From contig JAHBSP010000002.1 of the NCBI GenBank assembly GCA_019639055.1, positions 1 to 64,000 on the forward strand: 64,000 nt of DNA. The letters are read 5' to 3'. The notes beneath the pieces are model-generated. The model was not told the origin of the DNA and did not search any database. It saw nothing but the letters and a program-made list of their open reading frames with translations. Below are positions 17,841 to 27,451 of this stretch, piece after piece. The DNA comes from Microbacteriaceae bacterium (GTDB lineage: Bacteria > Actinomycetota > Actinomycetes > Actinomycetales > Microbacteriaceae). Every line of letters starts with the position of its first letter. The first letter of the stretch is position 1. Both the position numbers and the translations under genes were made by a program.

Positions 17841-18425
17841 TTACCTTTCAAATCGGTGAATTTTCGATTCTGTAACAGCGCCGGAAATTGGTTCATCATA
17901 TTGATTCGATGGCACTGAATCGAAAACTTCATTCTCAAAAACTACCGCATAGATCGGGGGTTTATTAGCCATTGAGCCAATTGTTTTATCAAAATATCCC
18001 TTACCCCAACCCATGCGCATTCCATCTTTACCTACACTGGCTGCTGGGATAATCATCAGGTCTGCGTCGTTGACCGCAATCGGTCCTAAAAGATTTCCAA
18101 TAGCCTCAGGCATTCCGAAAAGCCCGATAGTTTCGCCCTCGTTGTTGGCTACAACCCAATCCAGAAGCCCGTCCTCACGAGAGATTGGTAGCAATACAGT
18201 TATTTCTTGAGCTATCGCCCAATTTAGAAATTCTCTTGTGTTTGGTTCTGTAGCCGAGGAAAGATAGCAAGAAATGGTTTTAACTCCAAGTGAATTACAT
18301 AGCTCTTTTAGGTTCTCAGTAAAGCCGAGACTTGCTGCATCGTACTGCTGAGCAGTGAGAGCCTTTCGGCCCTGTCGAATATTTGCTCTCAGCGCCTGTT
18401 TTTCTTCTCTTACAGTTGATTCCAT
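17841..18425 (-). CDS. 5-formyltetrahydrofolate cyclo-ligase
   Basis: A 194-residue member of the 5-FTHF cyclo-ligase family, which converts 5-formyl-THF to 5,10-methenyl-THF using ATP. The family motifs KQALRANIRQGRKAL (N-terminal basic helix), DLMIIPAASVGKDGMRMGWGKGYFDK (substrate and ATP site) and the final PISGAVTE stretch are visible. The ATG start lies 6 nt behind a TAGCAT box on the minus strand, consistent with leaderless expression. It is divergent from galU with only 38 bp between the starts, and upstream of mscL in one unit. Confidence 0.92.
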   Translation of the reverse strand: MESTVREEKQALRANIRQGRKALTAQQYDAASLGFTENLKELCNSLGVKTISCYLSSATEPNTREFLNWAIAQEITVLLPISREDGLLDWVVANNEGETIGLFGMPEAIGNLLGPIAVNDADLMIIPAASVGKDGMRMGWGKGYFDKTIGSMANKPPIYAVVFENEVFDSVPSNQYDEPISGAVTESKIHRFER

Positions 18426-18463
18426 GTAGTAATGCTAGCCCGAAAGCCGCTAAGGTTAACTGC

Positions 18464-19345
18464 GTGAGTATCACTAAAGCTGTTGTTCCAGCCGCTGGAT
18501 TAGGCACTAGATTCCTTCCGGCAACGAAGGCGCTACCCAAAGAGATGCTGCCGGTTGTCGATAAGCCAGCTATCCAATATGTTCTTGAAGAAGCGGTAGC
18601 TGCAGGCCTCGATGATGTGCTTATGGTCATTGGCAGGAATAAATTCTCTATTCAAGATCATTTCGATGCTGTACCAGAGCTCGAAGCAAATTTACAGAAA
18701 AAGGGTGACCAAAAACGCCTTGATGAGGTTGTTGAATCAAGCGACCTAGCAGATATTTTTTATGTACGTCAGGGAGAACCTCGTGGACTCGGGCATGCCG
18801 TTTCTAAAGCGAAGTCACATGTAGAAGGGGAAGCCTTTGCAGTCCTGCTCGGGGATGACCTAATTGATGAATCGAACTATGTGCTTCCAGACATGATTAA
18901 AGCTCATGAAAAGCACGGGGCAACGATTTTGGCACTTATGGAAGTTCCAATCGATCACATTCACCTTTACGGCGCAGCTGCAGTGGAGAAAACTGATGAT
19001 CCAAATATCGTAAAAGTTACTGGGCTTATTGAAAAACCTGCGGCAAAAGACGCTCCGTCTAATTTGGCAGTAATCGGTCGTTATATTCTGCAACCGAATG
19101 TTTTTAGTGTTTTGGAAGAGACCCCTCCGGGTAAAGGGGGAGAGATTCAACTTACTGATGCCCTCCAGAAAATGGCGGTAGAGAATATCGCTGGCGGAGT
19201 TTACGGGGTAATTTTCCGTGGGCGTAGATATGACACTGGTGACAAGCTCGACTACATCAAAGCGATTCTTCAGATTGCAGTAGATCGTCCCGATTTAGGG
19301 CCAGATCTTACGCCATGGTTGAAGAAGTTTACAGCGGAGTTATAA
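18464..19345 (+). CDS. galU: UTP-glucose-1-phosphate uridylyltransferase
   Basis: A 293-residue nucleotidyltransferase making UDP-glucose. The N-terminal signature AVVPAAGLGTRFLPATKALP, then KEMLPVVDKPAIQYVLEEA, the RQGEPRGLGHAV segment and GDDLIDES (metal-binding Asp) identify GalU. The start is GTG 18464: TAAGGT (18451-18456) lies 7 nt upstream, so the message is probably leaderless. A longer reading from upstream would run into the divergent promoter. The product feeds glycan and trehalose synthesis. Confidence 0.94.
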   Translation: MSITKAVVPAAGLGTRFLPATKALPKEMLPVVDKPAIQYVLEEAVAAGLDDVLMVIGRNKFSIQDHFDAVPELEANLQKKGDQKRLDEVVESSDLADIFYVRQGEPRGLGHAVSKAKSHVEGEAFAVLLGDDLIDESNYVLPDMIKAHEKHGATILALMEVPIDHIHLYGAAAVEKTDDPNIVKVTGLIEKPAAKDAPSNLAVIGRYILQPNVFSVLEETPPGKGGEIQLTDALQKMAVENIAGGVYGVIFRGRRYDTGDKLDYIKAILQIAVDRPDLGPDLTPWLKKFTAEL

Positions 19346-23201: not shown

Positions 23202-24147
23202 GTAGTACCGGGTTCAACTCGATGCCTTTTCCTGACCTAGCAATAACCTCCACGGCGCCTGTTAGTGAGTTTCTTCTAAAGAGAAGTCCGTTCTGTCCGG
23301 ATAATTCCTTTGCTTTCACTTCTATGGAGTTCTTAGGACCCAAAACCTGCACCTTAGTACCAGCAGTCACATAAAGACCTGCCTCAACCACGCAGTCGTC
23401 ACCTAGAGAAATACCGATACCGGAGTTTGCTCCCAAAAGACTTCTTTCACCAACAGAAACCTTATGAGTGCCACCTCCCGATAGGGTGCCCATGATACTG
23501 GCTCCACCACCGATATCACTCCCGTCACCTATAACAACACCCTGGCTGATTCTGCCCTCAACGATTGAGGTGCCGAGAGTGCCAGCATTGAAGTTTACGA
23601 AACCTTCGTGCATGACTGTTGTCCCGGGGGAAAGGTATGCACCAAGACGCACTCTCTGCACGTCTGCGATACGGACGCGGTCAGGAATCACGTAGTCAAT
23701 AAGTCTAGGAAACTTGTCGTAACTTACCGCAGTGACCCCTTTGCGTTGAAGCCGGACCCGATTTTTTGCAAAGTAGCTGGGCTCTACTGGGCCGTTTGCT
23801 GTCCATACCACATTTGGGAGCACCCCAAAAATGCCGTCAAGATTTATGGAATTTGGTTTTACTAGCCTGAGTGACAATAAGTGAAGTCTTAGATAGGCAT
23901 CCTGAGTATCTGTCACTGGCCCTTGCAGATTTTTAGTCTCGATGAGTGCTGTATCGACGATTACTCCGCGATCATCATCCTGATATTCCTGCGCTGTAAG
24001 TTCTGTCGGCATCAGCCAGCGGTCTTGTTTTTCTGGAAATTCTCCCAGTGTTAGTTCTGGGAACCAGACATCCAACACCTTTGAATCTAATGTTTTGGTA
24101 ACTAATCCAAATCCCCAGGCACTTATTGGTCTCTCTGCTGCACTCAC
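23194..24147 (-). CDS. dapD: Tetrahydrodipicolinate N-succinyltransferase
   Basis: A 317-residue enzyme of the actinobacterial DapD group. It carries the left-handed beta-helix hexapeptide repeats (from about residue 170: GAYLSPGTTVMHEGFVNFNA, then GDGSDIGGGASIMGTLSGGG) and the long N-terminal domain usual in this group. It transfers succinyl from succinyl-CoA to tetrahydrodipicolinate in the lysine/meso-diaminopimelate pathway, the step pairing with DapE. The GTG start at 24147 lies 7 nt behind TAATCT, so the mRNA should be leaderless. Divergent dapE uses the same base pairs as its own -10. Confidence 0.95.
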   Translation of the reverse strand: MSAAERPISAWGFGLVTKTLDSKVLDVWFPELTLGEFPEKQDRWLMPTELTAQEYQDDDRGVIVDTALIETKNLQGPVTDTQDAYLRLHLLSLRLVKPNSINLDGIFGVLPNVVWTANGPVEPSYFAKNRVRLQRKGVTAVSYDKFPRLIDYVIPDRVRIADVQRVRLGAYLSPGTTVMHEGFVNFNAGTLGTSIVEGRISQGVVIGDGSDIGGGASIMGTLSGGGTHKVSVGERSLLGANSGIGISLGDDCVVEAGLYVTAGTKVQVLGPKNSIEVKAKELSGQNGLLFRRNSLTGAVEVIARSGKGIELNPVLHA

Positions 24148-24166
24148 ACAAACTAGATTAGTTTAA
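24148..24166. promoter_or_regulatory. Overlapping divergent -10 boxes of dapD and dapE
   Basis: Only 19 bp separate the two GTG starts. On the plus strand TAGATT (24154-24159) is 7 nt before GTG 24167; on the minus strand TAATCT (24160-24155) is 7 nt before GTG 24147. The two hexamers share five base pairs and sit in the palindrome AAACTAGATTAGTTT (24150-24164). Confidence 0.7.
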
Positions 24167-25231
24167 GTGAGCTTAGATTTTTCTATCAATAGTGTGCAGA
24201 TAGCCAAGATCCTGTGTGATATTCCATCGGTATCGGGGAATGAGCAAGAAGTTGCGGATCTAATTCAAGAGTCGCTTAGTGAGTTTTCGCATCTGAGTGT
24301 TGAGAGAATCAGCAATAACATCATCGCTAAAACCAATCTTGGGCGAGACAAGCGTGTGGTTATTGCCGGGCATATTGACACCGTGCCAATCAAAGACAAT
24401 GTTCCAGCCAAATTCATCGAGGATGACACAATTTTGTGGGGTAGAGGCACTGTGGATATGAAAAGCGGTGCAGCAGTCATGGTGAAGCTGGCGGCGGAGC
24501 TTGCGGAACCGCTATGGGACATCACCTGGATTTGGTATGAAAATGAGGAAGTTGCGGAAACCCTCAACGGACTCAAGCAATTAGCTGATTCCAGACCGGA
24601 AGAATTGGCGGGGGATTTTGCAATCCTATGTGAGCCAAGTAATGCCGAAATAGAAGGTGGTTGTAACGGAAACATTCGTGTGCGGGTCTACGCGGAAGGC
24701 ACACGTGCTCACTCTGCTCGTGCCTGGTTGGGCGATAACGCCATCCATAAACTAGGCAGTGTTCTGCAAGCACTCGCTAATTATCAAGCGGCGACCGTGA
24801 ATGTTGATGGCCTTGATTATCGCGAAAGCCTCAGCGCAGTCGGAATTGAAGGTGGTGTTGCTGGGAATGTGATTCCAGATGCTGCAAACATTCACGTGAA
24901 CTACCGTTTCGCCCCGAACAAGACCATCGAGGATGCTTACCAATTCCTGACAGGTTTCTTCGCCCCTCTCAGAGTGGAGATTGTGGATGCTGCAAACGGC
25001 GCAAGACCAGGACTCGACTCCGAATTTGCAGCGGTATTTATTAGCGCTGTTGGCGCAGAAACTAGACCGAAGTATGGCTGGACCGATGTCGCCAGATTCG
25101 CTCGTTTAGGCATCCCTGCCGTAAATTACGGCCCGGGTGATCCGAACCTAGCTCACACCGATAATGAGCAGGTGCCTGTTGCACAAATTATCAGGGTTGA
25201 AGAGGGACTGCGCGCTTGGCTGCAAGGCTAA
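24167..25231 (+). CDS. dapE: Succinyl-diaminopimelate desuccinylase
   Basis: A 354-residue M20-family dizinc hydrolase. Metal-site segments are GHIDTVP (H69, D71), RGTVDMKSG (D97) and YENEEVAE (E126/E127), with the C-terminal ligand in NLAHTDNE. It removes succinate from N-succinyl-LL-diaminopimelate, the product of the DapD branch. The dapD gene is its divergent neighbour, which favours DapE over other M20 peptidases. GTG 24167 follows TAGATT by 7 nt. The end overlaps the next gene by 16 bp. Confidence 0.92.
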   Translation: MSLDFSINSVQIAKILCDIPSVSGNEQEVADLIQESLSEFSHLSVERISNNIIAKTNLGRDKRVVIAGHIDTVPIKDNVPAKFIEDDTILWGRGTVDMKSGAAVMVKLAAELAEPLWDITWIWYENEEVAETLNGLKQLADSRPEELAGDFAILCEPSNAEIEGGCNGNIRVRVYAEGTRAHSARAWLGDNAIHKLGSVLQALANYQAATVNVDGLDYRESLSAVGIEGGVAGNVIPDAANIHVNYRFAPNKTIEDAYQFLTGFFAPLRVEIVDAANGARPGLDSEFAAVFISAVGAETRPKYGWTDVARFARLGIPAVNYGPGDPNLAHTDNEQVPVAQIIRVEEGLRAWLQG

Positions 25232-27421: not shown

Positions 27422-27451
27422 AGATTCCTCTCCTTCTTATAGTCTAGGAGA

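Follow-up and report, generated by a model that had tools for sequence, protein, structure and literature searches.

The divergent genes dapD and dapE very probably share a single promoter. We analyzed a stretch of 64,000 nucleotides (nts), called here the window, in which the segment from 24148 to 24166 is best read as a bidirectional sigma-A promoter, with one TANNNTA −10 element that would serve both strands and produce leaderless or nearly leaderless mRNAs on both sides. Four observations favor this reading: the geometry of the site, the lack of Shine-Dalgarno (SD) triplets, the strict spacing that the −10 boxes keep in relatives, and a shared box that is both conserved and recurrent. Promoters that work in both directions from a shared −10 are already known, as are leaderless genes, a doubly leaderless divergent pair, and adjacent dapD and dapE genes; the new part is one box common to two genes predicted to be leaderless, kept and re-used. 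A search of open-licence papers turned up neither a shared dapD/dapE promoter nor a single box for two leaderless genes of a pathway, and nothing on the conservation, re-use, or splitting of such a box.

Both genes belong to the lysine and cell wall pathway. Their family assignments are secure, both profile scores being above the cutoffs: 468.3 bits versus 441.5 for DapD (DapD_actino) and 479 bits versus 304.2 for DapE (dapE-gram_pos). The first-pass annotation had called the two enzymes two steps of one pathway; they are in the same pathway, but the steps are not consecutive, because DapC acts between DapD and DapE. The genes start head to head at GTG codons, and direct reading of the sequence confirmed the annotated gap of 19 bp, which makes the start-to-start distance 20 bp. 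The start codons appear to be well placed. Upstream of the dapD GTG are five in-frame codons, none of them a start codon, and then a stop; the dapE GTG is directly preceded by a stop codon; and alignments to 27 relatives begin at residues 1 to 11 of DapD and 1 to 3 of DapE. The coordinates of all features are given in Table 1.

Table 1. Features of the dapD/dapE intergenic region and its flanking genes (positions in the window)
Feature	Position	Strand	Basis or remark
dapD, tetrahydrodipicolinate N-succinyltransferase, 317 aa	23194..24147	-	GTG start 24147-24145; TIGR03535
dapE, succinyl-diaminopimelate desuccinylase, 354 aa	24167..25231	+	GTG start 24167-24169; TIGR01900
Putative shared symmetric −10 box TANNNTA (TAGATTA), union of two hexamers	24154..24160	both	sequence; geometry recurs in relatives
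TAGATT, predicted −10 of dapE	24154..24159	+	7 nt 5′ of dapE GTG
TAATCT, predicted −10 of dapD	24155..24160 (read 24160-24155)	-	7 nt 5′ of dapD GTG
Palindrome AAACTAGATTAGTTT	24150..24164	both	perfect 6-bp arms around GAT
Predicted dapE transcription start, leaderless	24167	+	from box spacing; 24166 would give a 1-nt leader
Predicted dapD transcription start, leaderless	24147	-	from box spacing; 24148 would give a 1-nt leader
Alternative candidate dapD promoter: TTGATA (24189-24184), 18 bp, TAAACT (24165-24160)	24160..24189	-	consensus scan

The two hexamers TAGATT and TAATCT had been described as overlapping by five base pairs, each 7 nt from its GTG and both inside a palindrome. Direct reading bears out each of these points: the overlap spans 24155 to 24159, the union of the hexamers is TANNNTA, and both lie within AAACTAGATTAGTTT. 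One mark of bidirectional promoters is a pair of −10 elements, one per strand, that overlap and are nearly symmetric; the window has such a pair. The same class of promoter is defined by divergent transcription start sites (TSSs) 7 to 25 bp apart, typically 18. Predicted from the start codons, the distance between the starts is 20 bp in the window and 18 bp in 25 relatives. According to the available text of PMC12825309, 18 bp is the commonest TSS spacing at bidirectional promoters, with 10 and 23 bp also common; in Salmonella, a spacing of 18 bp makes position −7 of each promoter coincide with position −11 of the other (PMC10268837, available text). If transcription in the window started on both GTGs, the boxes would lie at −8 and −12 instead of −7 and −11, and 18-bp spacing would need 1-nt leaders. 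The site also has the features of a leaderless pair. TANNNT is found 7 nt from each start, and the triplets GGA, GAG, and AGG are absent from the 18 nt 5′ of dapD and from the 18 nt 5′ of dapE, leaving neither gene with an SD triplet.

To place the site among its relatives, we used 296 loci with dapD and/or dapE, collected in batches of 30 (that of the window included), 80, 77, 29, and 80. The batches of 30 and 29 included no further member of the window's genus. The genes were head to head in 269 of these. The 27 loci that were dropped had only dapE (14), only dapD (10), both genes on the same strand (1), genes too far apart (1), or no N-terminal match (1); some of the stretches with a single gene were short or ended at a contig edge. 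Removal of identical intergenic sequences left 255 head-to-head loci. When the start codons were those chosen by alignment, TANNNT was 6, 7, or 8 nt before dapD in 146, 68, and 7 of the 255 loci, and at the same spacings before dapE in 115, 56, and 9; at every other spacing it was present in 0 to 11 loci. When any in-frame start near the N terminus was allowed, TANNNT occurred 5 to 8 nt before a candidate start of dapD in 253 loci, of dapE in 252, and of both genes in 250. As a control, six other sets of spacings gave TANNNT on both genes in 0, 0, 0, 0, 2, and 3 of the 255 loci. Because the 5- to 8-nt spacing is so strict, dapD and dapE look leaderless throughout the sampled Actinobacteria. 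TANNNT-type boxes about 10 bp upstream have been taken as marks of leaderless genes in a computational survey (PMC3160421, available text), and start-site mapping in Mycobacterium tuberculosis showed that 73% of primary TSSs had TANNNT 7 to 12 bp upstream (PMC3898074, available text).

These spacings also bear on a different reading, in which the two genes have overlapping but distinct promoters. In that case dapE would be transcribed from TAGATT without a leader, dapD would use TAAACT with TTGATA as its −35 element, its transcript beginning close to 24153 and carrying a 5′ leader of roughly 6 nt, and TAATCT would be incidental. TTGATA-18-TAAACT was the only match in a sigma-70 consensus scan of positions 24050 to 24270, but one match compared with a mean of 0.5 in shuffled sequences is weak. 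TAAACT would be 12 nt from the dapD start, and TANNNT is present 9 to 12 nt before dapD in 5 of the 255 loci versus 253 for 5 to 8 nt. Furthermore, the available text of PMC3898074 reports that M. tuberculosis promoters showed no conserved −35 motif. We consider two distinct promoters improbable.

One TANNNTA flanked at 6 to 8 nt by in-frame dapD and dapE starts, the layout expected of a shared promoter, was found in 30 of the 269 head-to-head loci, or 28 after removal of two double entries. Fifteen other symmetric dinucleotide boxes served as a control; 14 gave no loci and one, TGNNNCA, gave 2 of the 269. With alignment-based starts alone, one subset contained six loci whose gap was 17 or 19 bp (L045, L113, L118, L120, L122, and the window), and all of them carried TANNNTA. 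In loci with separate boxes, an A followed TANNNT in only 19 of 225 cases for dapD and 9 of 224 for dapE; thus, boxes do not usually take the symmetric form TANNNTA. Two separate boxes are present in most relatives, and a minority keep the shared layout. Among the carriers are Leifsonia aquatica (L045), four Cryobacterium loci (L082, L087, L095, and L107), and Leucobacter weissii (L043). The annotation had proposed a single box used in both directions and leaderless messages for both genes; at the level of sequence, comparison with the relatives supports this strongly.

The distances between starts were unevenly distributed. Of 250 loci, 25 had a start-to-start distance of 18 bp, 1 of 19 bp, 2 of 20 bp, and 2 of 23 bp, with none below 18 bp and none at 21 to 22 bp; these counts do not represent prevalence because the last batch of 80 loci was deliberately drawn from genera known as carriers of the box. 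Above 23 bp the spread was broad, with a cluster at 31 to 33 bp. A draw of relatives yielded 107 loci, of which 92 were head to head and 88 had both boxes; it gave seven distances of 18 bp, one of 20 bp, and two of 23 bp, and the box was shared in 8 of the 92 head-to-head loci. Named genome contigs supplied 80 loci, of which 71 were head to head and 70 had both boxes; here the distance was 18 bp in five loci and 20 bp in one. Among short distances 18 bp stands out, also in these draws that were not aimed at carriers. In the two loci at 23 bp (L030 and L165), the two boxes share only TA. The annotation had suggested conservation of the 19-bp gap as a check. The shared-box geometry is indeed present in other genera, but the gap there is mostly 17 bp; among the 28 shared-box loci, a 19-bp gap was found only in the window and in L. 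weissii, and L239 has an 18-bp gap.

The core of the box in the carriers is mostly CTAGRTTAGT. Three others, TACCCTA (L118), TAGGCTA (L120), and TACAGTA (L043), have the same geometry. A 23-bp motif, CATN5TAGRTTAGTN3RTG, which misses the 7-nt spacing of the window and the carriers with other cores, matched 28 of 398 genomes of the family Microbacteriaceae, compared with 1 genome for the reversed motif. The dapD/dapE intergenic region holds 27 of these matches, in genomes of seven genera (g9, g28, g53, g54, g55, g57, and g108); 21 of the 27 were placed there automatically, and 6, on reversed loci, by reading their coordinates. The 28th is in the region upstream of manA in the genome of the window.

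What is conserved around the box also bears on the palindrome, which might be an operator for a regulator of dapD and dapE, instead of or beside the promoter box. Its arms are perfect over 6 bp, a near copy precedes manA in the same genome, and deletion of crp in M. tuberculosis raised dapD and dapE together, by log2 values of 0.67 and 0.62 (PMC7938724, available text). With up to 2 mismatches allowed, AAACTAGATTAGTTT had a single match in the 64 kb, versus a mean of 0.09 in shuffled sequences, of which 8 of 100 had at least one. The palindrome core CTAGATTAG recurs in relatives. However, the full palindrome is absent from all of the other 27 shared-box carriers, so that the window is the only 1 of 28 with it, and conservation beyond the needs of a promoter was not found. 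Beyond TANNNTA, the flanks on the left and on the right differ; what the relatives keep is the spacing to both starts, not the symmetry of the arms. An operator is thus very unlikely, the least probable of the readings that we considered.

The history of the shared box was traced on quick trees of DapD plus DapE, with SH-aLRT support only and with many weak forks. A tree of 117 rows, which excluded two duplicate loci of carrier genomes, L228 and L212, gave 8 state changes, or 7 without the window; a tree of 53 rows gave 7, at least 4 of which were forced by starred branches. L120 and L043 sit inside groups of noncarriers (SH-aLRT values of 96 and 97), which suggests separate origins or repeated loss of the shared box. 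The row for the window was long-branched in these trees, and a single clade of the window, 12 chosen carriers (Leifsonia, Cryobacterium, and g57), and L292 was not rejected with the 53 rows (p-AU = 0.85). Within a carrier group with a support value of 99, L292 and L313 have a split box, and their sister L291 has the shared box. In both split loci, dapD retains CTCTAGATTAGTAG, and dapE lies 14 bp farther on, preceded by another TAGATT. The split apparently arose by a 14-bp tandem duplication that gave dapE a TAGATT of its own.

In the bidirectional promoter that we favor, RNA polymerase with the housekeeping sigma factor would open the same seven base pairs, TAGATTA, in either orientation. Since TANNNTA is a −10 on both strands, the polymerase could bind either way round; one orientation would start dapE near 24167 and the other would start dapD near 24147, with the ends of the transcripts at, or no more than one base from, the start codons. 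We infer activity in both directions, starts at the start codons, and mutual exclusion at binding. The most likely effect would be cheap coexpression of dapD and dapE from one element, and competition would become relevant only once one direction was strong.

That only one polymerase at a time could open this DNA had been proposed in the annotation, and it agrees with the available text of PMC12825309, which states that steric constraints bar simultaneous binding of polymerases at bidirectional promoters. A stronger version of this idea, compatible with the bidirectional promoter but adding a selected function, is that the box has been kept because exclusion fixes the ratio of DapD to DapE or lowers noise. 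The retention of the shared-box geometry in several genera, and its appearance with other cores, would be in line with such balancing. However, none of the five E. coli bidirectional promoters tested was strong enough at the basal level for competition, which emerged once one direction had been strengthened (PMC12825309, available text); in addition, the boxes are separate in most relatives, and two species inside the carrier group have a split box. Given the basal weakness seen in E. coli, we regard balancing by competition as unlikely and do not take it as the default. A somewhat broader proposal, still a tentative one, is that box sharing by two leaderless genes of one pathway may be a selected, reusable state, which would have arisen more than once with different cores, been held in several genera, and been undone by the 14-bp tandem duplication. 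If it is selected, mutual exclusion would couple the output of DapD and DapE.

A wide description of bidirectional promoters reportedly appeared in a 2021 paper. As far as the available text of PMC12825309 (E. coli) and PMC10268837 (Salmonella) goes, the dapD/dapE site resembles the promoters described there in having a near-symmetric −10 that would be read on both strands. Their 18-bp spacing is exactly what transcription from the start codons would give in relatives whose gap is 17 bp, and the window differs with its 20 bp (18 bp with 1-nt leaders). The site also differs from these promoters in that both of its transcripts are predicted to be leaderless and both genes belong to one pathway. 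Because both transcripts are predicted to be leaderless, the spacing of the box would also fix the two start codons. The likeness to the leaderless genes of Actinobacteria lies in the TANNNT motif, its position, and the lack of an SD sequence (PMC3160421 and PMC3898074, available text). The available text of PMC3898074 calls closely juxtaposed divergent promoters common in M. tuberculosis, and one divergent pair there, prpD (Rv1130) and Rv1129c, has both starts mapped to the start codons and so is leaderless on both sides. The available text of these two papers (PMC3160421 and PMC3898074) contains no description of one box serving both genes, nor the term "bidirectional." A third comparison is with the dapD/dapE loci of most sampled Actinobacteria, which have the same head-to-head pair, with leaderless-type −10 elements on both genes in 250 of 255 loci, but have two boxes instead of one and start-to-start distances from 23 bp to more than 1 kb.

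Bidirectional promoters are mostly known from genome-wide maps of start sites, in which conservation and function are hard to judge. The dapD/dapE loci form a natural series: some have separate boxes, some a box shared at 18, 19, or 20 bp, some a pair of boxes with no more than TA in common at 23 bp, and some a recently split box. With leaderless messages expected on both sides, the start codons mark where the TSSs should lie, so that sharing can be followed from genome sequence alone. The series makes it testable whether promoter sharing couples two enzymes or is mere compaction, and dapD/dapE is thus a good natural test case for two-way promoters.

We rejected motif counting alone as evidence for sharing. 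The pattern of a start, 5 to 7 nt, TANNNTA, 5 to 7 nt, and a start had 13 matches in the 1.42-Mb genome compared with 24 for the reversed control. Since the raw pattern is not enriched, the evidence lies in its placement and in the comparison with relatives, not in the motif alone. Two of 12 distinct pattern sites fall between divergent frames of more than 100 aa. One is dapD/dapE; the other (L201, 1501 to 1525; G000:C11:131872-131896) is a second TANNNTA box in the same genome, between glpX and a divergent frame, with the starts 20 bp apart. The glpX gene presumably encodes a fructose-bisphosphatase of the class II type, and its divergent partner encodes a 209-aa proline-rich, membrane-like protein. 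In a survey in which 45 of 59 genomes matched, 30 glpX loci were examined; 7 had a leaderless-type box before glpX, several others had a GGAG-like SD sequence, and only the locus in the window's own genome (1 of 30) had boxes on both sides. The glpX site was therefore rejected as a second conserved case of a shared box and is, in contrast to dapD/dapE, lineage specific.

Leaderless-type genes are common on contig C10 (159,907 bp), which contains the window, as judged from a peak in box spacing. There, 29 of 154 long reading frames have an ATG or GTG close to their start that follows a TANNNT at 6 to 8 nt (15 at 6 nt, 10 at 7 nt, and 4 at 8 nt), and other spacings have 0 to 6. Five of 16 divergent pairs among these frames have leaderless-type boxes on both sides, with starts 20 (dapD/dapE), 39, 63, 78, and 89 bp apart. 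The near copy of the palindrome, AAACTAGGTTAGTT (L206, 1499 to 1523; G000:C16:25199-25223), coincides with the leaderless-type box of the manA-like gene, and there is no convincing gene start on its opposite side. At 18425 to 18464 in the window is a divergent pair with starts 39 bp apart, which has leaderless-type boxes on both sides that are separate. Another divergent pair, with a 30-bp gap (27422 to 27451), mixes initiation types: the TatB-like gene on the plus strand has TAGTCT 6 nt before its GTG, and the O-methyltransferase-like gene on the minus strand has a GGAGAGG-type SD sequence.
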